Shown piece by piece: positions 9,845-55,974 of a stretch of DNA of 55,974 nt (position 1 is its first letter; every line of letters starts with the position of its first letter). A program made the position numbers and the translations under genes. Under the pieces are notes generated by a model. The model ran no database searches. It was not told the origin of the DNA and saw nothing but the letters and a program-made list of their open reading frames with translations. The DNA is from Pseudomonadota bacterium. Lineage in GTDB: Bacteria > Myxococcota_A > UBA796 > GCA-2862545. The stretch lies in contig JAGSGY010000030.1 of the NCBI GenBank assembly GCA_023954855.1, forward strand, positions 1-55,974. Reading direction: 5' to 3'.

Positions 9845-9932
9845 GAGGGCCTCCGCGTGCATTTTGCCGCATCCGGGGACCCATTGGGCCGGACTTGGCC
9901 CGAATGACGCGCGGGGAGCGGTTGTGGGACGG

Positions 9933-11366
9933 CTAGCCCTCGCCCTGGGTGTCGCGCACGAAGCGACCGACGACCTCGGTGTGACCCGTGTGGGGGAACA
10001 GGTCGACGACCCAGAGCTCGGCGAGCTTCCAGCCACCCGCTTCGAGAAATGCGCGGTCGCGGCCGAGGGAAGCGGGGTTGCAGGCCACGTAGACGAGCAC
10101 TTCGGCGGTGGCGGTGGCGAGTGCCTTGGCGACTTTCGGATGCAGTCCTGCCCGCGGAGGGTCCACGACGAGCGAGCGGCGTCCCTCGGTGCTCTTGAGC
10201 ACATCGAGGGCATCTTCGACCTTGCCGACCCGAAACTCTGCGGTGACGCCGTTGGCCTCGGCGTTTGCACGCGCGTCGTGAATGGCCGCTTCGACGAGCT
10301 CGACGCCCACGACCCGGTCAAAGCCCTCGGCCAGGGTGATGCCGATCGACCCGGTGCCGCAGTACAAATCCACCAGGGTGCCGGACGGGCTGCCCAGTGC
10401 TTCGCCGATGGTCTCGTACAGCCGCTCTGCGCCCTTCGTCGAGGTCTGGAAGAAGGCGGTGGCGGACAGGCGATAGCGGCGGCCCAGGAGCGACTCTTGG
10501 ATGGTGTCGCGGCCCCAGAGCTGCTGCACCTCGCCGCGAGCGACGTCGGCGACGCCATCGTTGATGCCCCAGATCACGCCCGCAACCGACCAGCCGTCGG
10601 CGTACTCGAAGGCCATGAGGGCCTCGGCGAGCGCGGTGACGACCTCGGCAGCGCCCTCTTCGGGAGAGGCGGTGTACAGCGCGATGAGCAACTCGCGGTC
10701 GACCTCAGAGGCGCGAATCATCAGATGGCGCCAGAAGCCGGTGTGCTCGCGCACGTTCCACGGAATTGGCGCGCTCTCAGCCAGGGCATGCTTGCGCACG
10801 AGGGTGAGGGCCTGGTTTCCCGCCTCGGGGATCAGCTCGCAGCGCTCGGAGTCGACCACGCGATCGAAGCGTCCCGGCGCGTGCATTCCAATGAAGCGAC
10901 CTTCGATGGGAACGCCGTTCGCGTGGTCCTCTTCGGAGAGAAAGCGGCTGACTCCAAACGACAGCTCCACCTTGTTGCGGTAGCCGTAGGCGTCTGCGGC
11001 GCCGCGCGTGGGGTGCACCTGCACGTTCTCGGGCCCGGCTTCGCCGAGGGCCTGGGTCACCGCGAGCTTGGTCTTGTGGACGCGCTGTGCGTCGAGCGGC
11101 AGCTCCTGCAGCTGGCATCCGCCACACAGGCCGAAGACCGCACACTTGGGAGCGACCATCTCGGGCGGCTCTTCGACCATGCGCACGCGTCGACCCTGCC
11201 AGGTGCCCTTGCGAAAACCCTGGGGAACCACGTGAATCACCGATCCGGGAGGGGCTCCGCGGACGTGCATGGACTTGCCGTCGGGTGCCACGCCACAGCC
11301 GACACCACCCTTGGCGAGGCCGTCGATCCGCAGGTCAAAGGGGTCGAGTCTTCTGCGTCGGCTCAC
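9933..11366 (-). CDS. RlmD/TrmA-family 23S rRNA (uracil-C5) methyltransferase
   Basis: A 477-residue SAM-dependent RNA methyltransferase of the RumA/RlmD/TrmA family. It has an N-terminal TRAM-like region (about 5-65), an iron-sulfur Cys set (CAVFGLCGGC plus a later CEL) and SAM motif I (VDLYCGTGSIGI). Also present are VDPPRAGLH and the nucleophile stretch YVACNPASLGRD. GTG 11366 is chosen because it begins just before the conserved DLRIDGLAKGG segment and has GGAG-type spacing upstream. It overlaps the DUF5522 stop by four bases (GTGA). Whether it acts on rRNA or tRNA uridine cannot be told without alignment; the family call is firm. Confidence 0.87.
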   Translation of the reverse strand: MSRRRRLDPFDLRIDGLAKGGVGCGVAPDGKSMHVRGAPPGSVIHVVPQGFRKGTWQGRRVRMVEEPPEMVAPKCAVFGLCGGCQLQELPLDAQRVHKTKLAVTQALGEAGPENVQVHPTRGAADAYGYRNKVELSFGVSRFLSEEDHANGVPIEGRFIGMHAPGRFDRVVDSERCELIPEAGNQALTLVRKHALAESAPIPWNVREHTGFWRHLMIRASEVDRELLIALYTASPEEGAAEVVTALAEALMAFEYADGWSVAGVIWGINDGVADVARGEVQQLWGRDTIQESLLGRRYRLSATAFFQTSTKGAERLYETIGEALGSPSGTLVDLYCGTGSIGITLAEGFDRVVGVELVEAAIHDARANAEANGVTAEFRVGKVEDALDVLKSTEGRRSLVVDPPRAGLHPKVAKALATATAEVLVYVACNPASLGRDRAFLEAGGWKLAELWVVDLFPHTGHTEVVGRFVRDTQGEG

Positions 11367-40958: not shown

Positions 40959-42839
40959 ATGACGCTCATGCGCGCAAGCTTGCTGGCTGCTCTGACCTTG
41001 GTCTCGTGCACGGGGTCCGAACCCGAGCCAGGGCCCGAGCCAGGCGCGTTGATGGCGGGCTTCGCACGGGCACGCATTCCTGCACCCGTCGGCATCGGCA
41101 CCGTCGGATACGGAGGCTTCGGCATCACCGCAGAGCCTTCTCCCTTTGCCGAGATCTACCCGGCCACGACGCGCATTCACGGCCATCCCGAGTTCAAGGC
41201 CGTGGCGGTGTCGCGGGGAGAGGGTCACGAGGTTGTCTTCGTGCGCATGGACTCCGTCGGGGTTTTTCAGCAGCTCCGACAGGGGGTGCTCATCGAACTC
41301 GAGAGCCGTCACGGCCGGAGCTTTGATGACGTCGTTCTCTTCGGTGCCACCCACACCCACTCCGGACCTGGGCGGATCATCGACAGTGGCGGCCCGTTCG
41401 ACCTGATCGCCGATCGGTTCATGCCGGACTTCTACCTGCGCATGGTCACCACCCTCGCCGACGTCGTCGATGAGGCCATGGAAGACCTGCAGCCCGCGCG
41501 TGTGGGCGTCACGGTGGGAAACACCGCCGAGGGGCACAACGACCGGCGCTGCGAGGATGGCCGCGACTACACCAACGACACGCTGCCGCTGATCGGCATT
41601 GAGCGCGATGGCGAGCTTCAGGCCGTGGTCGCGAATTACGCCATTCACGGCACCGCGCTCGGCATCGAAGAGCTGACCCTCTCGCAAGATGTGTCCGGTG
41701 CGATTGAGGAGGCCGTCGAAGACCGCTTCGACCACCCGGTCGAGGTCCTGCTCTTCAACTCGTGGGCCGCGGACATGGCACCCTCGTCCCCGACGGTGAC
41801 CACGGTGGCAGGCGCTACACAGCCCAGTGGCTACGACCGCATGGAGGCCGTCGGCCTGGTGGTCGCCGATGAGATCGAGGCGCGCATCGCCGACCTCGAC
41901 TGGCACACCGAGCCGCACATCAAGATGGAGACGCATCGCGTGCGCATCGACCGCGACGTGCTCGGCTACGACGACGACACCTTCGACTACGAGTTTGGCG
42001 GTGTGTACTGCGCGACCGGCGAGCCCGACTGCGACCCCGAGACGACGATCGAGGGGCTGGATGAGGCCTGTCTGCCGTTTACCGAGGAGTTTCCGGCTCC
42101 GAATCAGACGGTGATGTCGGCCGGTCAGGTGGGTCCGATGCACTTCGTGACCTTCCCGGGCGAGCCCGGCACCCTCCTCGCCGAAGAGGTCATGCAGACG
42201 CTCGGCGTCGAGCCGTTCATGTTCTTCGGCTACAGCCAGGACTACCTTGGGTACTCGATTCTCGAGGATGACTGGTGGCAGGGGGGCTACGAGGCGAGCG
42301 GCGCGCTGTGGGGTCCGAAGCAGGGCGAGCACCTGAAAGAGGCGGCCATCGACGCGTATGAGCGGACCTACGCGCCCAACACCGTGGCTTCGCTTGCCGA
42401 GCCGCCGCCGGTCGCGGCCTTTGACGTCGGCGAGTTCGACGCCTACGAGCCCATGCCCGGAGAGTCGGTCGGCACCGTGCTCACGCAGCCTGTGGCCTCG
42501 GCCGGGACCGATGTCGTGGTGATGACCGTCTCGGGCGAGGACCCCTGGGTCGGTACCCCGCTCGCCATTCTCGAGCTGGCGGATGGTACGCCGGTGCTCC
42601 GCCCGAACGGCATGCCCGTCGACTCCGATACCTACGCGTTCTGGGTCGATCTGCTGCCCACGCCTGGCTACCGCGACGAGGAGGCCACCTCTCGTCAGTT
42701 CGCGTGGACCTTCTCGATGCCGGCGACCAAGAGCGTGCCCGGCCTGGCCCTCGATGGGGACTACCGACTTCGCGTCGAGATGCCCGGTGGAAGCGACATC
42801 ATCAGCGACACCTTCACGGTCACGCCTGCGGGCGGTTGA
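40959..42839 (+). CDS. Neutral/alkaline ceramidase-family lipoprotein
   Basis: A 626-residue protein with a lipobox (TLVSC, Cys about 17) and a domain of the neutral ceramidase family, which cleaves the amide of ceramides. Zn-ligand motifs are present: ATHTHSGPG and YAIHGTALG, plus a C-terminal Ig-like domain (about 520-626). At the site of the nucleophile motif (usually N-x-SPN) the sequence reads AADMAPSSP, so the Ser seems absent or shifted by two residues. GGAGG lies seven bases before the ATG. It may hydrolyse another amide, or be inactive. Its 3' end overlaps phoR-like by 20 bases. Confidence 0.78.
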   Translation: MTLMRASLLAALTLVSCTGSEPEPGPEPGALMAGFARARIPAPVGIGTVGYGGFGITAEPSPFAEIYPATTRIHGHPEFKAVAVSRGEGHEVVFVRMDSVGVFQQLRQGVLIELESRHGRSFDDVVLFGATHTHSGPGRIIDSGGPFDLIADRFMPDFYLRMVTTLADVVDEAMEDLQPARVGVTVGNTAEGHNDRRCEDGRDYTNDTLPLIGIERDGELQAVVANYAIHGTALGIEELTLSQDVSGAIEEAVEDRFDHPVEVLLFNSWAADMAPSSPTVTTVAGATQPSGYDRMEAVGLVVADEIEARIADLDWHTEPHIKMETHRVRIDRDVLGYDDDTFDYEFGGVYCATGEPDCDPETTIEGLDEACLPFTEEFPAPNQTVMSAGQVGPMHFVTFPGEPGTLLAEEVMQTLGVEPFMFFGYSQDYLGYSILEDDWWQGGYEASGALWGPKQGEHLKEAAIDAYERTYAPNTVASLAEPPPVAAFDVGEFDAYEPMPGESVGTVLTQPVASAGTDVVVMTVSGEDPWVGTPLAILELADGTPVLRPNGMPVDSDTYAFWVDLLPTPGYRDEEATSRQFAWTFSMPATKSVPGLALDGDYRLRVEMPGGSDIISDTFTVTPAGG

Positions 42840-44586
42840 GCTCCACCCAAAACGCGGCGCCGCCCTCCGCGGAGCGTTTCACGCCGACGGAACCGCCCAT
42901 CGCGGCGGTGAGGTTGCGCACGATCGAGAGCCCGAGACCGGTGCCGCCGACCTCTCGGCTGCGGCCTTTGTCGACGCGGTAGAAGCGCTCGAAAACGCGC
43001 TCGCGGTGCTCGACGGGAATACCGGGCCCGTCATCGCGAACCACGATTCGGGTGCGGTCCTTGCCCACGTCTGCTGCGATGACCACCTCGCCATCGCCGT
43101 ACTTGATGGCGTTGATGACCAGGTTCTCGAGGATCGAGTGCAGGGCGCGGGCGTCGGCGAGTACTGAACCCGACGCATCTTCGGAGCGCACGCTCACGTG
43201 GTGGCGCTGGGCGTTGGGTCCCGTCGACTCGATCACGGCGAGAACGGCGTCCTCGATACGGACCGGCGCAATATTGAGCGGAAGCTCGCCGGCTTCGATG
43301 CGGGTGATCTGCAGCAGGTCGGCGATCAAGTCGCCGAGGCGGCGGGCCTGGCGGTCAATCGCCTCGGTGAAGCGCACCCGGCCAATCTCGTCCTCGAGGG
43401 CGCCGCCCTCCAGCAAGGTCTCGGTGTTCGCGATGATCACGGCGACAGGCGTGCCGAGTTCGTGGGAGACGTTGCCGACGAAGTCGCGGCGAACCGTCTC
43501 GAGACGGCGAAGTTCGGTCACGTCTCGGAGTACCAGGACCCGTCCACCCGTGCGGGGTAGGGGAGCGCTCGCGACCTCGATGAGCTGACGGTGGGCGAGC
43601 TTCAGCTCGGCTTGGACCGGCACGCCATCGAGCGCCGCCACATGCTCCGCGAGCGCCCCGGGCACGCGCTTGCCGAAGCGCTTGCCCTTCGGGACCTTCT
43701 TCCAGCCGAACAGCCCAACGGCAGCTTCGTTCGCCACGCGCACGCGGCCGTCGGCATCGAGGGCGACCACACCATCGGACATGCCGTCAAGGACGGCTCG
43801 AACCAGGTCGCGCTGTTCCGCGAGCCCGCGGACCGCCTGGGTCAGCTCGTCTTCGAGGCGCTCGGACTCCCGAGCCCGAGGTCGATCGGAGGGGAACTCG
43901 CCGGATTCGCGAGAGTGCTCGGCGCGGTCGTCATCCTCGTCATCCTCGTCGGCCTCGTCGGGCAACTCGAGTGGCCCGGCGAGGGTGCGCGCCTCGCGCA
44001 GCAGGTCTTCGAGCTCGCGGTTGACCATGGCGGCGGCGAACCAAGAGGCGAGGGTGGCAAGGGCGAGGGCGAGCAGTCCTGACGTCACAAGGGTTGCGCG
44101 CAGGTGGGCGATCGACGTGTCGAGCTCAGTCAACGGCGTGGCGACGCGCACCACGCCGGGCGTGCCGTTGAAGTCGCGCTTCACGGCCACGTAGATGAGG
44201 TCGGTGCCGACCGTCGTGGAGTAGCGCCGGGCGATGCCCTTGCCGCCTTCGAGCGCCTTGACGATCTCGGGTCGTTCCGCGTGGTTGTCGAGCTCTCCGA
44301 GATCCGTGTCCTCGACCCAGGAGTCGGCCACCACCTCGCCATCTGCGCGGATGAAGGTCACGCGGGCATCGGCGGTGCCGAGGTCCTTGGCGAGCGAGGG
44401 GAGAGCTGTGGCCGGAACCGTCTGGGACACGGCGTCGGCCACGCGTGCCCGTGCGAGCAAGCGCTGCTCGATCTGCTCGATGAGGTCGTGGCTCAGCGAG
44501 CGCTCGAGCAGCAGACTGGTGGGAAGGCCGACCAGCAGGACCACCGCGATGACGACGCGGAAGATCCGCCAGGCGGCTGGTGTCAT
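42820..44586 (-). CDS. PhoR-like sensor histidine kinase
   Basis: A 588-residue inner-membrane kinase. TM1 is about 7-26, a periplasmic domain spans about 27-160, and TM2 is about 163-187. A HAMP-like linker carries an unusual acidic insert (DEADEDDEDDDRAEHS), followed by a PAS domain (about 265-365). HisKA reads SHELGTPVAV (Gly replaces the usual Arg of ELRTP). The ATPase domain is complete (NLVINAIKYG, DDGPGIP, GTGLGLSIV). It overlaps the phoB-like gene (ATGA), as in phosphate-sensing pairs. The phosphate role is supported by the neighbouring OprP-like porin but remains inference. Confidence 0.82.
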   Translation of the reverse strand: MTPAAWRIFRVVIAVVLLVGLPTSLLLERSLSHDLIEQIEQRLLARARVADAVSQTVPATALPSLAKDLGTADARVTFIRADGEVVADSWVEDTDLGELDNHAERPEIVKALEGGKGIARRYSTTVGTDLIYVAVKRDFNGTPGVVRVATPLTELDTSIAHLRATLVTSGLLALALATLASWFAAAMVNRELEDLLREARTLAGPLELPDEADEDDEDDDRAEHSRESGEFPSDRPRARESERLEDELTQAVRGLAEQRDLVRAVLDGMSDGVVALDADGRVRVANEAAVGLFGWKKVPKGKRFGKRVPGALAEHVAALDGVPVQAELKLAHRQLIEVASAPLPRTGGRVLVLRDVTELRRLETVRRDFVGNVSHELGTPVAVIIANTETLLEGGALEDEIGRVRFTEAIDRQARRLGDLIADLLQITRIEAGELPLNIAPVRIEDAVLAVIESTGPNAQRHHVSVRSEDASGSVLADARALHSILENLVINAIKYGDGEVVIAADVGKDRTRIVVRDDGPGIPVEHRERVFERFYRVDKGRSREVGGTGLGLSIVRNLTAAMGGSVGVKRSAEGGAAFWVELNRPQA

Positions 44587-45275
44587 GCGCTTTCCGGGGA
44601 CACGAATCGGTAGCCCACGCCACGGACCGTCTGGATGTAGGACCCGCCGTCACCGAGCTTCTCGCGTAGGCGTCGCACGTGGGTGTCGATGGTGCGGGAG
44701 GTGACGTTGAAGCCGCCCCAGACATCCTGCAGGAGCTTGTCGCGCGTCCAGACTCGGCCGGGCGCCTGGGCGAGGGTGAGCAGCATCTTGAACTCGAGGG
44801 GCGTCAGGTCCACCTCGGACTCGTCGAACCAGACCCTGTGCGAGCCCGCCGAGATCTTGAGTCGCTGCACGCGAATCTCGTCCGCCTGTTCGACCACCAC
44901 CGGGCGGTGCTTGAGAATGCCGCGCACGCGCAGCAGGAGTTCCCGTGGGCTGTAGGGCTTGGTGACGTAGTCATCGGCGCCGATCTCGAAGGCCACCACC
45001 CGGTCGATCTCGTCGGTACGGGCCGACAGGACGATGATCGGCACATCCTTGGTGCGGTCGTCGATCTTGAGCTGTTTGCAGACCTCGGTGCCCGGGTAGT
45101 CGGGCAACATCAGGTCCAGCAAGATCAGGTCGGGCATGGGGTCGAGTCGTGCATACTCCAGACCCTTGGTGGCGTTGAGCGCGATGCGCGTGCGCAGCCC
45201 CTCCCGCTCCAGGTTGTAGGCCAACGTGGTAGCGAGATCGGGTTCATCTTCGACGATCAGGATCAGTTGCGACAT
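44583..45275 (-). CDS. PhoB-like OmpR-family response regulator
   Basis: A 230-residue regulator. The receiver (1-120) has VEDEPD, phospho-Asp 54 (LILLDLMLPD), the SA switch and the KPY lysine. The C-terminal winged helix (about 130-228) has DLTPLEFKMLLTL and SRTIDTHVRRLREKLG, as in PhoB/OmpR. The ATG has GGGAG upstream. It is co-transcribed with the kinase and lies 128 bases downstream of the OprP-like porin gene. That 128-base gap shows no gene. PhoB assignment rather than another OmpR member rests on context. Confidence 0.82.
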   Translation of the reverse strand: MSQLILIVEDEPDLATTLAYNLEREGLRTRIALNATKGLEYARLDPMPDLILLDLMLPDYPGTEVCKQLKIDDRTKDVPIIVLSARTDEIDRVVAFEIGADDYVTKPYSPRELLLRVRGILKHRPVVVEQADEIRVQRLKISAGSHRVWFDESEVDLTPLEFKMLLTLAQAPGRVWTRDKLLQDVWGGFNVTSRTIDTHVRRLREKLGDGGSYIQTVRGVGYRFVSPESA

Positions 45276-45403
45276 GTGTGCGCTCCCTAACGCATAGGGC
45301 TTAGATCGGCGGTCCGACGCGGTGGTTACGCGAACGCAACAACTTGAGGGAGGCGCAAGTGCTCACCGGGCGATGTGCCTCGATGTACGGGACTCGCCTC
45401 GGC

Positions 45404-46687
45404 CTAGAACATGCATTGCAGCTGGACTCGGCCCTGATCTTCAGCCTCGCTCGCATCCTCGCCCCAGCTCCGCAGGTAGTCGGCCTGGAACTTCATCTTG
45501 TTGCGGGCTCCGCCCAGGTAGTAGGACGCGCCGCCGCCGACTTCGGTCCGCTCTGACAGGATGCTCTTGTCACCGGGCGTGTTCTGGCCGTAGCGCGCGG
45601 CCAACCCGACGGGTGTGTGGGGGATGAGCACTTGGGGCTGCACGTAGAATCCGGTTCCGACCTCGGCCATCGGCTGATCCGTGTCCGCACCGTCTCGCCA
45701 GAAGAAGGCCGCCTCGGTCGAGAATCCGTGGATCTTGACGAGCGCGTCTGCAGTGACGTTGTGGTAGCTGTACGTGGACTCGCCGTCGGTGATGTCCTTT
45801 CCGGCTGCCGGCGAGTCGACATAGGCGTAGGCGGCGCCGAGAGACAAGCGAAGTCCGGTGCGCTCGAAGTCCTGGGCCTCGTAGTCGTCGAACAGGCCGA
45901 AGGGCGTCACGTTCACGCGCGCTAGGTACATCATGCCGAGGTTGTTCGGCTCGAATCGGCCTCGACCCTCGCCGGCGTAGACACCGACGTTGTACTGAAA
46001 CAGGCCCAGCCCGCCGAGGTCCTTACTGCCGACGTCCAAGCCGATGTCGCGGTCGAGGTTGAAGGCCGAGTTCGCGCCCGAGCGATCCACCATCGACAGT
46101 TTGCTCGACGAGATGACTCGCTCCCGGCTGTACGGCACCTTGTACTGGCCGACGCGCAGGTTCGCGTCCCGGAGGTGGGTGAAGGTGTTCTCCCAGGTCA
46201 GCAGAGGTGTCTGACGCAGAAAGCCTTCGCCGCTGACCGACTCATCGCGCGGGGAGATCGCCAGCTCGATCTTGTACTTGTTGTGCTTGCCCCACATGTT
46301 GCCGACTGCGGTGATGCGAGCGCGGCGGATCATGACCTGCTGGGTCAGCGAGGGCTCGGGGTCCACGGCAGTCGGGTCGTTTTCGATCTCGTAGAGGAAC
46401 ATCGCGCGAAAGCCGAGCGCGAGGGAGTGACGCCCGTCGACCGACGACCACTTCAGGCCCTTGCCCGGCTTGAACACGCCGCTTCCCGCGTCGACCGGAG
46501 CGCTGCCGTAGTCCGAGAGCTCCCGCTCAGGGACGAGGCTCGAGCCGTCGTTCTCGACGGACTCAGCTTTGTCAGCGACCGGCGCTTCTGCAGCGGGCGC
46601 GGCGGGCACGATGGCCGCGGCCTCAGCGGGGTGGTCCTCGGCCGCAGCCAAGGTGGAGATCAGCAGGAGCGAAAGGGCGGTGGTCAT
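45404..46687 (-). CDS. Phosphate-selective porin O/P-like outer-membrane protein
   Basis: A 427-residue protein with a signal peptide, an Ala/Pro/Glu-rich spacer to about residue 65, then a barrel related to OprP/OprO: LALGFRAMFLYEIEND, MIRRARITAVGNMWGKHNKYKIEL, LRVGQYKVPYSRERV, and a final Phe (LQCMF). OprP and OprO pass phosphate and polyphosphate through the outer membrane under PhoB control. The ATG has AGGAAG upstream. It neighbours the phoB/phoR-like pair and a candidate Pho box. The family is fairly clear; anion specificity is inference. Confidence 0.8.
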   Translation of the reverse strand: MTTALSLLLISTLAAAEDHPAEAAAIVPAAPAAEAPVADKAESVENDGSSLVPERELSDYGSAPVDAGSGVFKPGKGLKWSSVDGRHSLALGFRAMFLYEIENDPTAVDPEPSLTQQVMIRRARITAVGNMWGKHNKYKIELAISPRDESVSGEGFLRQTPLLTWENTFTHLRDANLRVGQYKVPYSRERVISSSKLSMVDRSGANSAFNLDRDIGLDVGSKDLGGLGLFQYNVGVYAGEGRGRFEPNNLGMMYLARVNVTPFGLFDDYEAQDFERTGLRLSLGAAYAYVDSPAAGKDITDGESTYSYHNVTADALVKIHGFSTEAAFFWRDGADTDQPMAEVGTGFYVQPQVLIPHTPVGLAARYGQNTPGDKSILSERTEVGGGASYYLGGARNKMKFQADYLRSWGEDASEAEDQGRVQLQCMF

Positions 46688-46874
46688 GTCGACTTCCTCA
46701 CGCCGTCCAATCTTATGCGTCCTCGTTACGTGACGTCGCGGCGAAGGTGACGAACTGAAGGAGCCTGTCTCCGTTTGTTGTTGCTTTAGGGAAAGGCATG
46801 GTTTGCCCTTGCTAAGTCGCTGGTTTGGCTCGGGTGGAGCGGCCCTCTGGCGAGACGGCCGGTGACCCTGAGTC

Positions 46875-46889
46875 GGCCGAAATTCGGCC
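46875..46889. promoter_or_regulatory. Perfect dyad GGCCGAA-A-TTCGGCC
   Basis: Seven-base arms with one central base, perfectly symmetric, in the divergent control region about 190 bases upstream of the porin start. Likely binding site for a dimeric regulator. Confidence 0.35.
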
Positions 46890-46918
46890 TTCAGCCTGGG
46901 TCGTCCAGAGCGTGTCAA

Positions 46919-46947
46919 CCGTCATGACTGCGTCGCCCTGCTGTCAC
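46919..46947 (+). promoter_or_regulatory. Candidate Pho box (three half-sites)
   Basis: CCGTCAT (46919-46925), GCGTCGC (46930-46936) and CTGTCAC (46941-46947) are three seven-base half-sites with four-base gaps, an exact 11-bp period. PhoB binds direct repeats of CTGTCAT with this spacing. The first and last half-sites fit well, the middle one poorly. It lies about 230 bases from the porin start and 290 from the lipoprotein start. Confidence 0.45.
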
Positions 46948-47175
46948 ATGGCGACTGAGTCGGGGAATGTGTCAGCCCGAAGGGGTCGGGCGGTTTCGGT
47001 GACAGTGGGCCTGAGCGCGTTTCACAGGCGTCATTGGGGGGGGCGATACGCGTGCTGCCCGCTGTAGACGCGATCTCGGCCATCTGGCGGTGCCGAGGTC
47101 GGTGACACAGGTGACGGCAAAGGCGTGGATCGACGGATCCAGCTCCAAGAAAAGGTCACCGCCGCGTCGACCGGC

Positions 47176-47182
47176 CTGTCAC
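47176..47182 (+). promoter_or_regulatory. Single Pho-type half-site near the TonB operon start
   Basis: CTGTCAC lies 11 bases before a weak TAGATG -10-like hexamer (47194-47199), close to the geometry of PhoB-activated promoters. The partner half-site 11 bases upstream is one base out of register, so the match is incomplete. Confidence 0.25.
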
Positions 47183-47234
47183 GACCCGAAGTCTAGATGC
47201 GTTTCGTGAACCATCACCTCGTTGGAGAGGCCTC

Positions 47235-48578
47235 ATGAACCGCATCTCGTCTGCACTCGTTCTCCTCGGACTCCTCGCCTGTAATAGCGACGAAGCCGGC
47301 ACCGACTCTGGCTCCTCGGACACTGGCGAAAACTCCGTGGACTGCTCGGACGGCGTCTGCGTGCTCTCAGGCACGATCACCGAGGACCTGACCCTCACGA
47401 GCGATGTGGCCTGGTTGCTGCGCGGCGGCGTGTTCATCGGTGACGACGAGAGCGAGACCGTCATCACGGTGGAGCCCGGCACGACGGTCTACGGCGAGTC
47501 TTCCACGGACGGCATGCTCGTCATTCGTCGCCACTCGCGCATCCTCGCCGAGGGCACGGCGACCGACCCGATTGTCTTCACGTCTTCGAAGTCCGAGGGC
47601 TCCCGCGCTCGCGGTGACTGGGGCGGCATCATCATCAACGGCAACGCGCCCATCAACGCGTGCGCGGATGACACCGAGGGCTGTCAGGCCTTCGGCGAGG
47701 GCGGCGCCGGCTGGTACGGCGGCGACGATGCCGGCGACGACAGCGGCGTGCTCAAGTACGTGCGAGTCGAGTTCGCTGGCACGCTGATCAGCCCCGACAA
47801 CGAGCTGAACGGCATCGCGTTCCAGGGTGTGGGCTCCGGAACCGAGATCGACTTCGTGCAGGTCCACATGAACGCCGATGACGGCGTCGAGTTCTTTGGC
47901 GGAACCGCCCAGGCCAAGCACCTCGTCATCACCGGCGCTGGCGATGACAGCCTCGACTGGACCGACGGCTGGCAGGGCAAGGCGCAGTTCGTCGTGCTGC
48001 AGCAGTACGCCGATGCCTCCGACAATGGCATCGAGGCCGACAACAACGGCGAGAACAACGACGCCACGCCACGCTCCAAGCCCACCCTCTCGAATGTGAC
48101 GATCGTCGGCAGCCCGGACAGCTCGGCCTCGGACATCGGCATGCTCCTGCGCGAGGGGACGGCCGCGGACCTCTCGAACATGCTCATCACGGGCCTGAAC
48201 GATTCGTGCCTCGACATCGACCACAGCAGCACCTTCGACCAGGTCACGAGCACGGAGCTGACGCTGTCCCATACCCTTCTGGATTGCGACGTCGCGATCA
48301 CCATGGATGAAGAGGACGCGAACGGCGACGAGACCCCCGACATCGACCCGGTGAACCTCTCGACCTGGTTCGCGAGCGGCACCGGCAACACGATCGGCAC
48401 GGCGGATCTCGAGGATGCGTTTAACGAGAGCGCACCGAACTTCGCGCCCAAGTCCGGTAGCGCCGCCCTTGGAAACGGAGTCGCCCCGACCGACAGCTTC
48501 TTCGACACTGCCGACTTCATTGGAGCCATCGGCTCCGAGGACTGGACGGCAGGTTGGACCACTTCCGTCGCCAACTGA
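47235..48578 (+). CDS. Right-handed beta-helix lipoprotein
   Basis: A 447-residue protein with a lipobox (LLGLLAC, Cys about 16) and an acidic Ser/Asp/Gly linker. The rest is a repetitive beta-helix: VEPGTTVYGES, GDWGGIIINGNAPIN, GVEFFGGTAQAKHLVITGAGDDSLDWTDGW and DNGIEADNN. The GDWGGI-type family occurs next to TonB-dependent receptors. It has no lyase-like catalytic site that I can see, so ligand capture at the cell surface is inferred. It heads an eight-gene operon: the next ATG is eight bases downstream. A GGAG-type site (TTGGAGAGG) precedes the ATG. Confidence 0.75.
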   Translation: MNRISSALVLLGLLACNSDEAGTDSGSSDTGENSVDCSDGVCVLSGTITEDLTLTSDVAWLLRGGVFIGDDESETVITVEPGTTVYGESSTDGMLVIRRHSRILAEGTATDPIVFTSSKSEGSRARGDWGGIIINGNAPINACADDTEGCQAFGEGGAGWYGGDDAGDDSGVLKYVRVEFAGTLISPDNELNGIAFQGVGSGTEIDFVQVHMNADDGVEFFGGTAQAKHLVITGAGDDSLDWTDGWQGKAQFVVLQQYADASDNGIEADNNGENNDATPRSKPTLSNVTIVGSPDSSASDIGMLLREGTAADLSNMLITGLNDSCLDIDHSSTFDQVTSTELTLSHTLLDCDVAITMDEEDANGDETPDIDPVNLSTWFASGTGNTIGTADLEDAFNESAPNFAPKSGSAALGNGVAPTDSFFDTADFIGAIGSEDWTAGWTTSVAN

Positions 48579-48585
48579 GGCTCTC

Positions 48586-49356
48586 ATGAACTGCTCTCTC
48601 CACTCCATTCTGGGCAGGGTCGCTGGGCTGGGTGTCCTGGCGGCTCTGGCCCTCCCAGGCTCGGCGGCCGCCGAAGATGCAGCGGCCTTCGCGAGTCAGC
48701 TCGCTGACCTCCGCGCGGACGTCGCCGCTCTCAACGAGGCGATCGAGGCCGAGAAAGAAGGCCAGCGCGGTCGACTTCGCAGCTTGGATGCACAGAAGGC
48801 TGAGCTCGAGGCCCAGATTCGCCGTGAGGAGCTGCGCATTCGTCAGCTTCGGTCTGCGGTGGCCGAGCGTGAGGCGCTTCTTGCGGATGATGTGGAGGGA
48901 GCGGACACACTGGTTCCGGTCGTCCTCGAGACGCTCGCGGGCCTGCGTGCCTCGGTGAAGTCGGGACTGCCGTTCCGCGTGACCGAACGTCTCGACGCAC
49001 TCGCTGAGCTGGAGAGGAAGACCCAGGACGGAACGCTTCGCCCGCAGCGAGCGGCCGCCCGGACGTGGCAGTTCATCGAAGATGAGCTTCGGTTGACCCG
49101 TGAGACCTCGCTCGATCGCCAGGTCATTCAGCTCGAGGGTGAGGACCACCTTGTCGAGATCGCACGGGTCGGCATGATCGCGCTCTACTTCCGGACCGAT
49201 GCGGGCCGGGTGGGGCGGGCCATCGACGGCGCTGAGGGCTGGACCTTCGAGCCCATCACCGATGCCGCGACCGAGGCTCGGGTGCTCGATGTGTTCGACG
49301 CGCTCACCAAACAGATTCGCTCGGGTTGGTTCGAGCTACCGATGGAGGCCATGTGA
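48586..49356 (+). CDS. DUF3450 exported coiled-coil protein
   Basis: A 256-residue protein with a signal peptide (ends SAAAEDA) and a long coiled coil (about 35-120: LADLRADVAALNEAIEAEKEGQ, LEAQIRREELRIRQLRSAVAE). The C-terminal domain has a DUF3450-like pattern (VEIARVGMIALYFRTDAGRVGR). The family is encoded next to TonB2-type systems and is presumed periplasmic. GAGG lies five bases before the ATG. The gene overlaps the next start. A structural role in the TonB complex is inference. Confidence 0.8.
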   Translation: MNCSLHSILGRVAGLGVLAALALPGSAAAEDAAAFASQLADLRADVAALNEAIEAEKEGQRGRLRSLDAQKAELEAQIRREELRIRQLRSAVAEREALLADDVEGADTLVPVVLETLAGLRASVKSGLPFRVTERLDALAELERKTQDGTLRPQRAAARTWQFIEDELRLTRETSLDRQVIQLEGEDHLVEIARVGMIALYFRTDAGRVGRAIDGAEGWTFEPITDAATEARVLDVFDALTKQIRSGWFELPMEAM

Positions 49357-50717
49357 TGCGCATTCTGTCCCTTCTTCTGGCGATGAGTCTGTCCGGACCG
49401 GTGGCCGTCGCCGCCGAGCCGACGCCCCTCGAGGCCGCCTACCAAAAGGAGTTCGCCTTCTTGTCGGCCGAGAGAGCTGCGCTCGAGAGCCGCCTGGCCA
49501 AGCTTCAGGCAGGGCGGGAGACCGCCGTGGTCGAGGCGGAAGGCCTGCTCTCCACGCTCGAGTCGCGCACGATTGCCGTGGGCTTGGAGGGCGACCGTCT
49601 CGACGAGAAGCTCGATGAGCTCGAGCGCGAGGCCGACGGTGCGGGCGAGGCGAGCGAAGCGCTCGCAGGGACGCTTCTCGCGGCTCGGACCAGCCTCGAT
49701 CGCGATGGCTTTGTCCTCGGCGAAGACACCACGGTCTTTGATGCGCAGGTCAGCCAACTCGACCGCGCGCTGGATGAGGGCCTGGTTCGCCTCCACGAAG
49801 GCCGCTCCATTCGCCGGACCCAAGGCAGCTTCTTCGTCGAGGACGGCGAGCAGGTTCAGGGGCAGCTCGCCTACGTCGGCAATGTCGGCGTGTTCGGCGT
49901 GAGCGATGCCAGTGCCGGTGCGCTGGTGCCGGCGGGTGAGGGACACCTCCGCCTTTGGAAAGAGCCGGCCGGACCGGCCGCCCACGCGGTCGTCGATGGC
50001 CAGATGCCCGGAGTGCTGCCCATCTACGTCTTCGAGAACCTCGAGAAGCGCATTGTCGAGGCGCCCGAGAAGACCTTTGCCACCTGGATTGCCAATGGCG
50101 GCATGGTGGGCTTGGTGATCATGGGACTGCTGGTCGCTGGTGTCTTTCTGGTCATTGCCCGAACCGTCTCGTTGTTCCGCCTGGGTGCCGGAGCCGACAA
50201 GCTACTCACCAAGGTGGCCGAACGGGTGGCCGCAGGCGACCTCCTCGGCGCCCGCGAACTCGCCGAGAAGGGAGGCCGCTCATCGGTGGCCACCGCGTTG
50301 GCTCGGGTCGTTCCCCACGTCGGTGCCGGTCGCGACCACGTCGAGAACATCGTCACCGAGGCGCTGCTCGCCGAACAGCCGCGCATCGAGCGCTTCGGCA
50401 CGCCGATTCTCGTGATTGCCGCCGTGGCCCCGCTGCTTGGCCTGCTCGGCACCGTGACGGGCATGATCGGCACCTTCGACGTCATCACCCAGTTCGGTAC
50501 GGGTGACCCGAAGATGCTCTCTGGCGGCATCTCCGAGGCGCTCGTCACCACGCAGATGGGCCTCGTCGTCGCCATTCCGATGCTGTTGCTCGGCAACTTG
50601 CTCGGAGCACGGGCCACGCGTCTGCTCGACCAGGTCGAGCGCGGCACGATGCATGTCGTCAACGTCGCCGAAGACAACCGCCCGGGCCCCGAGCCGATTC
50701 CCAACGCGGCCAAGTAA
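49356..50717 (+). CDS. TtpC-like long ExbB/MotA-TolQ protein
   Basis: A 453-residue inner-membrane protein. After a signal peptide it has a periplasmic coiled coil (about 25-115) and a beta-rich domain (about 130-235), then three membrane helices (about 249-273, 345-370, 400-420) with the ExbB/TolQ core: VAPLLGLLGTVTGMIGTFDVI and GGISEALVTTQMGLVVAIP. TtpC in Vibrio has this layout and is needed by its TonB2 system. ATG 49356 has GGAGG seven bases upstream; GTG 49353 is possible. It precedes a normal-length exbB. Confidence 0.88.
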   Translation: MRILSLLLAMSLSGPVAVAAEPTPLEAAYQKEFAFLSAERAALESRLAKLQAGRETAVVEAEGLLSTLESRTIAVGLEGDRLDEKLDELEREADGAGEASEALAGTLLAARTSLDRDGFVLGEDTTVFDAQVSQLDRALDEGLVRLHEGRSIRRTQGSFFVEDGEQVQGQLAYVGNVGVFGVSDASAGALVPAGEGHLRLWKEPAGPAAHAVVDGQMPGVLPIYVFENLEKRIVEAPEKTFATWIANGGMVGLVIMGLLVAGVFLVIARTVSLFRLGAGADKLLTKVAERVAAGDLLGARELAEKGGRSSVATALARVVPHVGAGRDHVENIVTEALLAEQPRIERFGTPILVIAAVAPLLGLLGTVTGMIGTFDVITQFGTGDPKMLSGGISEALVTTQMGLVVAIPMLLLGNLLGARATRLLDQVERGTMHVVNVAEDNRPGPEPIPNAAK

Positions 50718-51292
50718 TGGATGCCGTGACCGATCTCTGGCGTCAGGGCGGCTTTGTGATGCCCTTTCTCGTCGGAGGCATGATGGTGCTCTGGTACGGG
50801 CTGGGCTGGCGTCTGCTCACCCTGCGTCGCGGAGACGGTCGAAGCCTTAAGGCGATGATCGATGCCGCCCACGAGGGAAAGCTCGAGGGGAGTGGCCTGC
50901 TGGTCACCGCGGTCCGCACGGCCGTTGCGGTGGCCAACGAGCCGCACAAACACCTCGCGCAAGAGCTCGACTACGCCCTCGCGACGCTTCGCGACGAGCT
51001 CGGCACCTACCGGCCGATTGTCGGCATCGTGGTCATTCTCGCGCCCCTTGCCGGTCTACTCGGCACGGTGACCGGCATGATCACCACCTTCGATGGCCTC
51101 GCCGAGATGGCGCTGTTCACGCAGGGCGGCGGCGTCGCGGGCGGCATCTCCGAGGCGCTCGTCAGCACTCAGATGGGACTCGCCGTCGCGATTCCCGGCG
51201 TCATCTTCGGGCGCCTGCTCGACCGCAAGCAGGACCTTCTCACCGACGAGCTCGACCAGCTCGTTGAACACCTCACGACGGAGGCTCCATGA
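50717..51292 (+). CDS. exbB: ExbB-type proton channel protein
   Basis: A 191-residue inner-membrane protein with three membrane helices (about 13-32, 100-125, 145-167). The signature GTVTGMITTFDGLAEMALFTQGGGVAGGISEALVSTQMGLAVAIP is split across TM2-TM3 (read as two short parts: GTVTGMITTF and GGISEALVSTQMG). With ExbD it converts proton flow into force on TonB. It overlaps the TtpC-like stop by one base and exbD by four. Length fits the short ExbB type. Confidence 0.9.
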   Translation: MDAVTDLWRQGGFVMPFLVGGMMVLWYGLGWRLLTLRRGDGRSLKAMIDAAHEGKLEGSGLLVTAVRTAVAVANEPHKHLAQELDYALATLRDELGTYRPIVGIVVILAPLAGLLGTVTGMITTFDGLAEMALFTQGGGVAGGISEALVSTQMGLAVAIPGVIFGRLLDRKQDLLTDELDQLVEHLTTEAP

Positions 51293-51696
51293 GCCGCTTG
51301 CGTCGCCGTACAGGTCCGAGCGATCTGGACATCTCTCCTCTCATCGACGTCGTGTTCATTCTGCTCATCTTCTTCATGGTCTCGACGACCTTCGTGAAGG
51401 ACATGGCGGTCGAGCTCGAGCGTCCGAGTGCCTCTTCTGGCACCCGCGCGTCCACCAAGGCGCTTCGCATCTACATCGACCGCGATGCGCAGTTCTACGT
51501 CGGTGAAGCCGTGGTGCGTCCGTGGATGCTCCAGAGCCGCGTGCGGGATCACCTTCGCAACAACGCCGAGGCCTCGGTCCTCATCGTCAGTGACTCCGGC
51601 GTATCGGCGCAGAAGCTGATCGACGTCGTGGATGCCTGCCGCTTGGCGGGTGCGAAGGATGTGGGCGTGGTCACCGAGCGCGAGGAGCAAGGGTGA
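51289..51696 (+). CDS. exbD: ExbD-type energy-transducing protein
   Basis: A 135-residue protein with one membrane helix (about 17-36) containing the functional Asp in SPLIDVVFILLIFFMV, then a periplasmic domain (YIDRDAQFYVGEAVV, VLIVSDSGVSAQKLIDVVDACRLAGAKD split as usual in ExbD/TolR). It completes the ExbB-ExbD motor and overlaps its neighbours by four bases on each side. Confidence 0.92.
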   Translation: MSRLRRRTGPSDLDISPLIDVVFILLIFFMVSTTFVKDMAVELERPSASSGTRASTKALRIYIDRDAQFYVGEAVVRPWMLQSRVRDHLRNNAEASVLIVSDSGVSAQKLIDVVDACRLAGAKDVGVVTEREEQG

Positions 51697-52319
51697 ACGG
51701 TCGGGCCCGAACCCTTGGCGCGACCGCCATCATGATGCTCGGCTCGGCCGGCGTTTTTGGCGGTGTGATCGTCATGAACGCGGCGGCTGAGATGGCGAAC
51801 GACCGCACGGGGGGACCAGTGAGCTCCTTCGAGGTGGCGAAGCGTCCGAAGCCGCCGCCAACGAAGAAGCCGAGGCCGAAGCGCTCGAAGCCGCGGCCAA
51901 AGCGCGCGAGTGCCGCCCCCATTCCGAGCCTGGGCGTGGCGATGTCCGGCGTCGACTTTGGTCTTCCGGGGATGGACGGTGCGCTCGGCGAGATGTCCCA
52001 GGCTCTGCTTGGCGACGTGCGCGACGTGGTGATGACCGAGGACAGCGTGGACTCGGTGCCCTCACTGATGACCCGCACCCGAGCCTCCTACCCGTCCAGG
52101 GCGCGTGCCAAGGGTGTCGAGGGTTTTGTGACCCTCTCAATGGTCGTCGGGCCGGACGGCCACGTCTCGGACGTGCGGGTGCTCGAGGCACAGCCCGCCG
52201 GCGTCTTCGATGACGCCGCGCTGACCACCGTGAAGGCCTGGCAGTTCGCGCCAGCCACCTACGAGGGACGCCCGGTGCCGATTCGCGTCACCCAAACCAT
52301 TCGCTTCGAGTTGTCGTGA
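51693..52319 (+). CDS. tonB: TonB protein
   Basis: A 208-residue protein. One N-terminal membrane helix (about 8-30) is followed by a Pro/Lys/Arg-rich periplasm-spanning linker (about 50-75: RPKPPPTKKPRPKRSKP). The C-terminal TonB domain (about 120-208) has YPSRARAKGVEGFVTLSMVVG and ends TIRFELS. It transmits the force of the ExbB-ExbD motor to the receptor plug. GTG start inside the exbD stop. Its linker is short, which may fit the adjacent receptor. Confidence 0.9.
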   Translation: MNGRARTLGATAIMMLGSAGVFGGVIVMNAAAEMANDRTGGPVSSFEVAKRPKPPPTKKPRPKRSKPRPKRASAAPIPSLGVAMSGVDFGLPGMDGALGEMSQALLGDVRDVVMTEDSVDSVPSLMTRTRASYPSRARAKGVEGFVTLSMVVGPDGHVSDVRVLEAQPAGVFDDAALTTVKAWQFAPATYEGRPVPIRVTQTIRFELS

Positions 52320-53470
52320 TGGGTCGTCTTCTCCTGGCTCTCTGCTTGTGCGCGGGGCCGATGCTCACCTCCGTCGCGGTTGCCGCGGAGGAAGCCGCCG
52401 ACGTCGATCCAGTCGCGCTCGCCGCGCTCCTGATTCGCGATGGCCACTGGGACCGCGCCGCGACGGCGCTCTCAGACGTGGACCTCAGCGTCGAGGGCGT
52501 TGACCGGGGTCGCTACCACACGCTTCTGGGCATGATTGCGCTGCACGAGAGCCGCTTTGCCGACGCCGTGACGGCCTTTGAGGACGCGCTTGCCGTCGGG
52601 CCTGCCGAGCCGATGCTCTACCTCCAGCTCGCCCAGGCCCGGCTCGGGTCCGAGGACTTCGACGGGGCGCTCGCGGCGGTCGACCAGGCCGGTAGCCTCG
52701 AAGACACCGTTGCTGCCGTGTGGCTTCTGCGCAGCCGCTCCCACTGGGGTGCGAAGCGCTACGATGAGGGCTACGCCGCGCTCCTCGAGGGCATCCGACG
52801 CTTTCCGGAGCGCGGAGACCTGGCCCAGCATCAGGTGCTTCTTCTCGTCGAGCTCGGCCTCTTCCGCGAGGCGGTCGAGGTCGGACGCGTCTATCTGGCA
52901 GGCGACGACGTCGAGGCACCGGCGTACGTGCTTCTCGCAGAGGCGATGCGACAGGCTGGCGAGCACCGCGAGGCGATCGAGCTTCTCGAGGCGGCCCGTC
53001 TGCGCTTTCCCGCCCACCAGGATGTCCTCATTCAGCTGGCCGGAACCTGGCTGGCTCACGGTGTGCCGTCTGCCGCGGGCGTCGTGCTTCAGGAGGCCGC
53101 TGAGATCGACCCCAAGTTCGCACTCGAGGCTGCCGAGTGCTTCCGGCAGGCCGGCGAGATCGACCGCGCCCTGTACATGAACGGGTTGGTGGTCGATGCC
53201 GAGGCGAAGGTGCGCCAGCGACTTGGCTTGCTCATCGAGTCGGAGCGCTTCGAGCAGGCGCTTGCCCTCGAGATGCGGCTGATTCGGCACGGCATGGCCG
53301 AGGACAGCGGGGTGGCGTACGCCCTCGCCTATGCGCGCTTCATGACTGGGGACCGTTCGGGAGCCGAGACCTGGCTGACCCGAATCACTGACACCAAGAT
53401 CTTCGAGGCCGCGACCCAGCTCCGCACGGTGATGGCGGCGTGCGAGGAGGAACCGTGGACTTGCCGCTAA
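52319..53470 (+). CDS. TPR protein of the TonB operon
   Basis: A 383-residue protein with a signal peptide (ends SVAVAAEEA) and many TPR-like helical pairs (HTLLGMIALHESRFADAVTAFEDAL; HREAIELLEAARLRFPAHQD). Comparable TPR proteins close TonB2-type operons in Vibrio and other gammaproteobacteria. Probably periplasmic, possibly a scaffold between DUF3450, TonB and the receptor. ATG 52319 overlaps the tonB stop (TGATG); a GTG three bases earlier is the alternative. Its 3' end overlaps the receptor's start by 16 bases. Confidence 0.75.
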   Translation: MGRLLLALCLCAGPMLTSVAVAAEEAADVDPVALAALLIRDGHWDRAATALSDVDLSVEGVDRGRYHTLLGMIALHESRFADAVTAFEDALAVGPAEPMLYLQLAQARLGSEDFDGALAAVDQAGSLEDTVAAVWLLRSRSHWGAKRYDEGYAALLEGIRRFPERGDLAQHQVLLLVELGLFREAVEVGRVYLAGDDVEAPAYVLLAEAMRQAGEHREAIELLEAARLRFPAHQDVLIQLAGTWLAHGVPSAAGVVLQEAAEIDPKFALEAAECFRQAGEIDRALYMNGLVVDAEAKVRQRLGLLIESERFEQALALEMRLIRHGMAEDSGVAYALAYARFMTGDRSGAETWLTRITDTKIFEAATQLRTVMAACEEEPWTCR

Positions 53471-55974
53471 GGCCCCTGTTTCTGGCGCTTCTCGCCCTTC
53501 CGTCCGCGGCATTTGCTGGGGCTATCGAGGGCTTCGTCTTCGAGGCGGGCTCCGGTGCCGTGCTCGAGGGTGTGAGCGTGACGGTCGGCGAGCAGTCGCT
53601 GACCACCGATGCTGGAGGTGCGTTTTCTGCGGATCTCGAACGGGGGCTCTACGACGTGGCCGTCGGCGAGCACTCGATTGGCCAGGTGGTGGTCGGCGAG
53701 ACCGGCGTGAGCGAGGTGCTCGTCACCTTGGCGGCAGACGGAAGTGTGAGTGCCCAGGTCGAGATGCCCGACGCCTCGACGCTCGACGGCATCGTGGTCG
53801 AGGATGCGCCCCTCGGGGTGGTCTCGGGCGTGATCACCGATGACGAGGAGGGAGGCCCCGTCGCGGACGTTCGCATCTTCGTGAAGGGGCTCGACGCCGA
53901 CGCCCGTACCGATGCGAACGGTCGCTTTGACCTCGAGATTCCGGCGGGCAGCTGGGAGCTGTCCATCATCCGGTCCGGCTACGCGACGCGGTCGGTGTCG
54001 GTCGAGTGTGTGTCTGGCGAGGAGCGAAACCTCGACCTGTCGATGGTCCCGACGGGCGTTCAGCTCGCGGACTTCACCGTGACTGCCCCCGCGATCGAGG
54101 GGAACACCGCGTCATTGCTCGCCGAGCGGCAAGACTCGGCCCAGGTTGCCGACGTGATCGGTGCCGAGCAAATGTCGAAGACCGGTGACTCGACGGCCGC
54201 TGCGGCGCTGCGGCGGGTGACCGGACTGACCCTCGTCGACGGCAAGTTCGTCTATGTGCGCGGACTTGGCGAGCGCTACTCGGCCACCTTGCTCAACGGG
54301 GCGTCGCTGCCCTCGCCCGAGCCCGAGCGCCGGGTCGTTCCGCTCGACATGTTCCCGGCCAGCATGCTCGACAGCATCGTGGTTCAGAAGACCTTCTCGC
54401 CCGATATGCCTGCCGAGTTCGGCGGCGGCGTCGTCCAGATCCGGACCCGAAGCGTGCCGGAGACCCCGTTCGTCAAGGTTGGGCTGAGCGGCAGCTATGT
54501 CAGCGACACCACCTTCAAGAGGACCCTGACCTCCGAGGGAAGCAGCACCGATTGGCTGGGCATGGATGGCGGCTTTCGCGGTCTTCCCGAGGCGGTTCAG
54601 GACGCGAGTGACAACTCACCTCTGGAAGAAGGGGACATGTTCAGCGACCGCGGCTACTCGGCCGAAAAGCTCGAAGAGCTCGGCGAGGCCATGCCGAATC
54701 GCTGGAACCTCTCCGAGGGCCGGGCCGCGCCCAATGGCGGCATCAACATGCAGGGTGGTGGCTCGGTCGACACCGGCTGGGGGCGTTTCGGGGTGCTCGC
54801 CGGCATGCTCTACAGCCGCCAGACCGCGAACAACGATCGCGAGGAGCTGTACTACGTGATCGAGGGCGGGGAAGAGCGACCGTCACACAGCTACGACTTC
54901 ACCGAGACCACGGACACCGTCCGCCTCGGTGGCCTGTTCACGGCCTCGGTCGAGGTCGGCGACGAACATCGGGTCAGCCTGACCACGTTGGTCAACCGCA
55001 TCACCGACGACGAGGCCCGCAGCTACGAGGGTGAGAACCGCGACGTCGGTGCGGCGATTCGCATCGGGCGGCTTCGCTGGCTCGAGCGCCAGCTCGTCAC
55101 TCAGCAGCTGCTGGGTCATCACGTGCTTCCCGCCGACCTCGAGCTCGACTACCGCTACACCTTCTCGACCGCGAGCCGACTCGAGCCCGACCGGCGTGAG
55201 TACCGCCTCGATAACGAGCCCGGCACCGACGTCTGGCGCATGTCCGACCGCCCCGAGGGCAATCAGCGCTTCTTCTCGACCCTCGCGGATCAGGTGCACG
55301 ATACTGGCCTCGATCTCATGTGGCCCATCGCTCTCGGAGAGGACCGTGTGCTTCGGCTCAAGGCCGGTGGCGTTGCGATGTTCAAGGATCGCGCCGTCGA
55401 CAGCCGCCGGTTCAAGTACATGCACAAGGGCGAGCGCTCGCGGGACCAGGACATTCTCGCCCAGGATGTCGAGTCGATTCTCTCGAGTGAGAACATCGGC
55501 CCGGACGGCTTCCAGTTCGAGGAAATCACGCGGCAGACCGACAACTATGGAGCCTCGCAGCGTCTCTTTGCAGGCTATCTCCTCGCAGATGCCGACCTGA
55601 CCGCGTCCACAAGGGTGTTGGCGGGCGCACGCGTGGAGAAATCGACGCAGACCGTGAGCACCTTCGAGTTGTTCAACCCGGACTCGGTGCCGGTCGGAGC
55701 CGGAGTCGACACCACCGACGTCCTCCCTGCGGTAACCCTCACCCAGGGCCTGTCCGTGGAGGGCATGCAGCTGCGGGCCGGATACGGTCGCACGCTCAAT
55801 CGACCGGACTTCCGCGAGATGTCGCCGGCCTCGTTCAACGACGTCACCGGTGGCCGCTTGCAGCGTGGCAACCCGAACCTCGGGCGGGCCACGATCGACA
55901 ACGTCGACCTTCGCTGGGAGTACTACCCGACCCCTGGCGAGAGCCTGTCGGTGGCGGTCTTCGCCAAGTCCTTC
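53455..55974 (+). CDS. TonB-dependent receptor with carboxypeptidase-like domains, 5' part
   Basis: The gene is open to the right edge: 840 residues are visible and the barrel is not finished. A signal peptide (ends SAAFAG) is followed by two carboxypeptidase-regulatory-like beta domains (about 23-90 and 118-200). The plug then has VADVIGAEQMSKTGDS, FVYVRGLGERYSATLLNG, VVPLDMFPASMLDSIVVQKT and AEFGGGVVQIRT. The barrel starts at about 340. GTG 53455 has GAGGAGG four bases upstream, inside the TPR gene. Outer-membrane uptake of a large or scarce ligand, energised by the operon's own TonB, is inferred. This is the operon's last visible gene. Confidence 0.9.
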   Translation, partial: MDLPLRPLFLALLALPSAAFAGAIEGFVFEAGSGAVLEGVSVTVGEQSLTTDAGGAFSADLERGLYDVAVGEHSIGQVVVGETGVSEVLVTLAADGSVSAQVEMPDASTLDGIVVEDAPLGVVSGVITDDEEGGPVADVRIFVKGLDADARTDANGRFDLEIPAGSWELSIIRSGYATRSVSVECVSGEERNLDLSMVPTGVQLADFTVTAPAIEGNTASLLAERQDSAQVADVIGAEQMSKTGDSTAAAALRRVTGLTLVDGKFVYVRGLGERYSATLLNGASLPSPEPERRVVPLDMFPASMLDSIVVQKTFSPDMPAEFGGGVVQIRTRSVPETPFVKVGLSGSYVSDTTFKRTLTSEGSSTDWLGMDGGFRGLPEAVQDASDNSPLEEGDMFSDRGYSAEKLEELGEAMPNRWNLSEGRAAPNGGINMQGGGSVDTGWGRFGVLAGMLYSRQTANNDREELYYVIEGGEERPSHSYDFTETTDTVRLGGLFTASVEVGDEHRVSLTTLVNRITDDEARSYEGENRDVGAAIRIGRLRWLERQLVTQQLLGHHVLPADLELDYRYTFSTASRLEPDRREYRLDNEPGTDVWRMSDRPEGNQRFFSTLADQVHDTGLDLMWPIALGEDRVLRLKAGGVAMFKDRAVDSRRFKYMHKGERSRDQDILAQDVESILSSENIGPDGFQFEEITRQTDNYGASQRLFAGYLLADADLTASTRVLAGARVEKSTQTVSTFELFNPDSVPVGAGVDTTDVLPAVTLTQGLSVEGMQLRAGYGRTLNRPDFREMSPASFNDVTGGRLQRGNPNLGRATIDNVDLRWEYYPTPGESLSVAVFAKSF

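Follow-up and report, generated by a model that had tools for sequence, protein, structure and literature searches.

A putative phosphate-starvation import operon combining an ElpS/FII-like surface lipoprotein, a TonB-dependent receptor and a TonB2-type motor

Introduction

The locus described here raises the question of what is imported by an operon that carries a surface-type lipoprotein, a TonB-dependent receptor (TBDR) and a complete TonB motor, and whether its position opposite PhoB- and PhoR-like genes reflects control by phosphate. The window (the whole stretch of 55,974 nucleotides that was analyzed) is a complete contig of a draft genome (G000:C73), open at its 3′ end. The initial annotation had proposed a TonB system controlled by phosphate and equipped with a dedicated motor and a surface lipoprotein, and the genes that it named were all found in the window, all but the lipoprotein with Pfam profile matches. 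Our best reading is an outer-membrane import operon of phosphate starvation, to which we assign a probability of roughly three in four.

Results and Discussion

Organization of the Locus

The features of the locus are as follows, with the supporting evidence in brackets.

42820..44586, minus strand: PhoR-like sensor kinase (Pfam HisKA/HATPase_c/PAS; NCBIfam PnpS 270 bits and PhoR 228 bits, both under the equivalog cut-offs)
44583..45275, minus strand: PhoB-like response regulator (Pfam Response_reg and Trans_reg_C; best NCBIfam match TIGR02154 PhoB, 225 bits, cut-off 296)
45404..46687, minus strand: Porin_O_P-family outer-membrane porin (PF07396, 36.3 bits, cut-off 20.9, partial coverage at profile positions 24-166 of 370)
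46688..47234, no strand: divergent intergenic region with the promoters of both sides (sequence)
46919..46947, plus strand: candidate Pho box of three half-sites 11 bp apart, CCGTCATGACT GCGTCGCCCTG CTGTCAC (nGTCACnGnnCnGTCACn motif scan)
47235..48578, plus strand: surface-type lipoprotein, right-handed beta-helix, ElpS/FII-like (lipobox Cys16; beta-helix model; type II secretion system (T2SS) synteny of relatives)
48586..49356, plus strand: TtpB (DUF3450), periplasmic coiled-coil protein (PF11932, 96 bits, cut-off 32.6)
49356..50717, plus strand: TtpC, large ExbB-like protein with signal peptide and periplasmic domain (PF01618, 98 bits; sequence)
50717..51292, plus strand: ExbB (PF01618, 79.5 bits)
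51289..51696, plus strand: ExbD (PF02472, 93 bits)
51693..52319, plus strand: TonB (PF03544, 80 bits; transmembrane segment and Pro/Lys-rich linker)
52316..53470, plus strand: TPR protein in the place of TtpD (PF14559, 65 bits; operon position)
53455..55974, plus strand: TBDR with two CarboxypepD_reg domains, truncated where the contig ends (PF13620, PF13715, PF07715, PF00593, PF14905)

Stop and start codons overlap at DUF3450/TtpC, TtpC/ExbB, ExbB/ExbD, ExbD/TonB and TonB/TPR, and the genes for the TPR protein and the TBDR also overlap, as read from the sequence; these overlaps point to one translationally coupled operon and a single transcript. The start of the DUF3450 gene was corrected to 48586 (256 aa) from 48415 and that of TtpC to 49356, and the porin most likely starts at 46687. 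Because the window is the whole contig, the TBDR gene (from about 53455) runs off its end and is incomplete. A second TBDR (7508-10558), adjoining a CHASE8 histidine kinase (5188-7221; together 5188-10558, minus strand), is unrelated to the operon.

PhoB/PhoR-Like Regulators and the Porin

The two best PhoB matches of the genome are the regulator at 44583..45275 and its copy on a second contig, C71. This contig (L034, G000:C71:1-7969) carries a further PhoR-PhoB-porin / lipoprotein-TtpB-TtpC arrangement whose DNA is about 74% identical to that of the window and likewise to that of G019, a genome of the same genus; it may represent either a paralogous copy or an error of binning. No canonical PstB over the TIGR00972 cut-off was found in the 97%-complete genome (best 161 bits vs 343). 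Elsewhere in the genome (C141:7813-10680, L191), a PhoU-domain protein adjoins two ABC ATPases.

The porin, which the initial annotation had counted as part of the block, is not a conserved member. It is kept in the C71 copy of the locus and is absent at the locus in G019, its nearest relatives elsewhere do not adjoin the operon, and the OprP porin at the phoBR locus of Flavobacterium johnsoniae is not induced by Pi depletion (PMC8115612). A PDB sequence search with the porin gave no match.

TonB2-Type Motor and Receptor

The order TtpB (DUF3450), TtpC, ExbB, ExbD, TonB and TPR matches that of the six genes in the Vibrio TonB2 system, and the assignment of the motor to this type rests on Pfam matches and gene order as described in PMC6957404. 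In Vibrio vulnificus the system consists of TtpB2, TtpC2, ExbB2, ExbD2, TonB2 and TtpD2, all six of which are required for siderophore uptake (PMC6957404). By these two criteria the window motor likewise has six components, TtpB being the first and TtpD the last. Its setting differs, since the Vibrio TonB2 genes have a Fur box and serve siderophores, whereas the window motor lies between lipoprotein and receptor and beside the PhoB/PhoR-like genes. The Vibrio TonB3 system also has six proteins and a receptor gene in its operon and transports no iron product; it is reported to be on in serum or glycerol medium, and that paper reports no phosphate link. The motor would probably serve the adjacent receptor, although the genome has further ExbD loci, so that its use need not be exclusive. 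A PDB sequence search with the receptor matched a single deposited receptor, via the N-terminal domain only, and a tblastn search of plasmids with the DUF3450 protein found nothing.

The Beta-Helix Lipoprotein

The lipoprotein has no family match in Pfam or NCBIfam. In an alignment of 15 members from the class, the lipobox Cys16 is invariant, as are some 70 further columns. The AlphaFold2 model, built from 65 aligned sequences, is a right-handed beta-helix (pLDDT 92, pTM 0.90) that VIA-align superimposes on pectate lyase Pel9A (1ru4) with Z 23.0 and 3.1 A over 281 residues; other structural neighbours are NosD, alginate epimerases and lyases, and tailspikes. Foldseek with the same model returned nothing at E<=0.001, and PDB sequence searches with the lipoprotein profile returned no credible relative. 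The structural neighbours indicate a fold only, and no function. Several invariant acidic residues (D215/D216, D237/D238/D241 and E267/D269) lie about one coil apart, an arrangement that fits a conserved and possibly Ca-binding surface.

These features bear on a reading in which the operon is under Pho control and the receptor imports a ligand that contains no phosphorus and is needed in phosphate starvation, for example a glycan, glycan fragments or a metal released by phosphorus mobilization, with the beta-helix as a glycan binder or lyase-like protein. Pel9A, the alginate enzymes, tailspikes and NosD as best neighbours agree with it, as do the acidic residues, which are spaced as in Ca-binding polysaccharide lyases, and the authors of the Flavobacterium study also proposed plant glycan binding for FII. 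A common fold does not show function, however, and the lipoprotein-receptor pair recurs next to phoBR, pst and phoU, not next to carbohydrate enzymes. We consider this reading unlikely. The capture of a ligand, which the initial annotation assigned to the lipoprotein, is one possible role only, given a modeled fold common to carbohydrate-active enzymes and structural proteins.

A scan of named genomes recovered at least 576 relatives of the lipoprotein, with one, two or three copies of the family domain in tandem. Myxococcota have one, many alpha- and gammaproteobacteria two, and the loci L119, L130, L133, L110, L125 and L129 three. Two database records in this family call for caution: a Hymenobacter member (L185:8875-10308) is misleadingly annotated as cell shape-determining protein MreB, and a contig labeled Klebsiella pneumoniae (L131) has a lipoprotein that groups with those of Myxococcota and is probably a mislabeled bin.

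Conservation and Linkage to Pho Genes

Nearly all DUF3450 loci of the class that are uncut by contig ends have the order lipoprotein-TtpB-TtpC-ExbB-ExbD-TonB-TPR-TBDR; one (L057) is without the lipoprotein. The comparison of gene order proposed in the initial annotation came out in its favor, with the operon order recurring in some 20 loci of the class. A chance arrangement was ruled out by the same recurrence. The TBDR adjoins the lipoprotein in the window and in 80 of 97 lipoprotein loci. In Poribacteria (L070, L072-L076 and L121), the position just after the lipoprotein, which the motor occupies in Myxococcota, is taken by an ORF of about 175-190 aa.

PhoB, PstB or PhoU was found near 17 of 99 non-duplicate lipoprotein loci and near none of 40 control loci, the neighborhoods of other TBDRs in the same class (Fisher p=0.002), a comparison in which the lipoprotein set spans more phyla than the controls. 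The remaining 82 of the 99 have no core Pho gene within the stretch read. Within the class alone, a core Pho gene lies near 5 of 24 lipoprotein loci. The clearest independent case of the arrangement is on pBGP9 of Alteromonas macleodii. There, phoB and phoR are followed on the same strand by genes for a phosphate-binding protein (PstS), a 2OG oxygenase, the lipoprotein, the TBDR and the complete motor. Other Pho-linked lipoprotein loci occur in Kordiimonas (pstCAB-phoU), Rheinheimera (phoBR) and Lysobacterales (phoR-pstCAB-phoU-phoB), and in the Myxococcota genome MAG.533 pst, phoU and phoBR occur together with the operon. On a tree of 65 lipoproteins, six changes are needed to account for the presence or absence of a motor, and starred branches force at least three of these.

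When 136 flanking ORFs were scanned with Pfam and NCBIfam profiles, the top families included PstS and T2SS protein C. A recurring phosphatase or phytase was not seen beyond a few HAD hydrolases. The initial annotation had held that consistent linkage to iron or vitamin genes in other genomes would refute its proposal; this was looked for among the flanking ORFs and not observed, none of the 25 most frequent families being an iron or vitamin family. The same result bears on whether the locus is an iron or siderophore TonB2 system that lies beside phoBR by accident, as might be supposed from the use of this motor type for siderophore uptake in Vibrio (PMC6957404). Against such an accident also stand the Pho-gene linkage repeated in several phyla and the F. 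johnsoniae homologues, which answer to phosphate and not to iron, and we regard it as highly improbable.

Promoter Motif

A scan for the E. coli-type TGTCA-N6-TGTCA gave clear matches in several proteobacterial promoters and weak ones in the closest relatives, and a motif was therefore learned from Myxococcota/Bdellovibrionota promoters, from random starts and with the window left out. In 24 upstream regions of relatives this de novo search yielded nGTCACnGnnCnGTCACn, a Pho-box-like 11-bp direct repeat with a logL of 117.7, while random control windows averaged 90 and reached at most 105. The candidate Pho box in the window includes a site at 46930-46947 with a moderate score of 7.8, one of two sites >=7 in 56 kb; 0.02 sites of this level are expected in the window's promoter region. 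It lies about 290 bp from the lipoprotein start codon and about 230 bp from the porin start, distances at which either promoter might be served. When the intergenic regions of the window, G019 and contig C71 were aligned, they proved to be little conserved.

Comparison With Phosphate-Starvation Systems

In Caulobacter crescentus, the surface-anchored lipoprotein ElpS (CC0170) is made specifically under phosphate starvation (PMC2996285), and its gene adjoins that of the TBDR CC0171, a pairing of surface lipoprotein and TBDR that the window shares. Relatives of the window lipoprotein in Maricaulis salignorans, alpha proteobacterium Q-1, and plasmids of Indioceanicola and Sphingomonas are followed by a TBDR and T2SS genes, the order of Caulobacter elpS-cc0171-gsp, with which they share the lipoprotein-TBDR-gspCDE arrangement. 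From this synteny in alphaproteobacterial relatives we infer that the window protein belongs to the ElpS family. The two settings differ in that the Caulobacter pair is followed by a T2SS, whereas the window pair is associated with a TonB2-type motor and has PhoB/PhoR-like genes opposite.

This difference bears on a third alternative, namely that the lipoprotein is mainly a secreted phosphatase activator, as proposed for ElpS, and that receptor and motor serve its release or signaling rather than import. ElpS release is T2SS-dependent and its over-expression raises phosphatase activity, and in Maricaulis, Indioceanicola and Sphingomonas the genes after lipoprotein and TBDR are those of a T2SS. 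The window operon, by contrast, is without a T2SS gene and has a complete TonB motor in that place, which favors energized transport through the receptor; we regard this alternative as very doubtful.

The phoBR locus PUSIV of F. johnsoniae (Fjoh_0542-0546) encodes an OprP porin, PhoR, PhoB, a TBDT and the pectin-lyase-fold lipoprotein FII (PMC8115612). The window has a similar set, with PhoR- and PhoB-like genes and with the two lipoproteins likened by fold and setting, and all three of the Pfam domains of the F. johnsoniae TBDT (PF07715, PF13715 and PF14905) also match the window receptor. For the TBDT and FII, induction is seen on Pi depletion only, and the published table lists fold changes of 8.0 and 9.9; FI, FII and FIII are reported to have 31-36% identity to a low-phosphate-induced Caulobacter lipoprotein (PMC8115612). 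PUSIV differs from the window in its gene order, and motor genes are not reported in the cluster. The SusCD/PusCD systems of Bacteroidota likewise pair a surface lipoprotein with a TBDR, and some are induced by low phosphate; the window lipoprotein, unlike their SusD-fold partner, is a predicted beta-helix and has no SusD Pfam match.

A literature search recovered no description of a lipoprotein/TBDR pair with a TonB2-type motor in a phoBR-linked operon, an absence that is not proof. The parts are known already, and their union in one such operon would be new.

Proposed Mechanism and Implications

The conserved operon, its linkage to phoBR, pst and phoU in unrelated phyla and the Pho-box-like promoter repeats lend good support to the central proposal of the initial annotation, as does the published low-phosphate induction of a related lipoprotein/receptor pair. 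We therefore prefer the reading as a phosphate-starvation import operon. Several observations weigh against it: the moderate score of the window's candidate Pho box and its distance from the start codon, the regulator scores under the equivalog cut-offs, the 82 lipoprotein loci without a core Pho gene in the stretch read, the further ExbD loci and the lack of a systematically associated phosphatase or phytase. In Caulobacter, moreover, deletion of elpS had no effect on phosphatase activity, and the receptor CC0171 is reported to be constitutive. When phosphate is scarce, PhoR/PhoB would switch the operon on, and the lipoprotein would be carried to the cell surface. There it may bind or prepare a probably organic or polymeric compound that contains phosphorus, and hand it to the adjacent TBDR. 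The TtpB-TtpC-ExbB-ExbD-TonB-TtpD motor, encoded on one transcript with this receptor and presumably dedicated to it, would energize it by the proton gradient. In relatives, low-phosphate induction has been shown for the lipoprotein (Caulobacter and Flavobacterium) and the receptor (Flavobacterium), and surface exposure for the lipoprotein (Caulobacter). We put at about even odds the fuller proposal that a PhoB-controlled TonB2-type motor powers one receptor importing an organic or polymeric phosphorus compound, which a beta-helix lipoprotein of the ElpS type presents to it, and that the association of motor and pair has arisen in several phyla.

The TonB2-type motor has so far been known from iron uptake, and the operon suggests that it has been recruited for phosphorus scavenging too, which would extend the TtpB/TtpC/TtpD type of motor beyond iron. 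When Flavobacterium is starved of phosphate, lipoproteins of the ElpS/FII family rank with its most strongly induced proteins, and what ElpS does has been a question since 2010. The occurrence of a linked motor in several phyla speaks for an energized importer made up of lipoprotein and receptor, and this compact operon may offer a test case for that reading.
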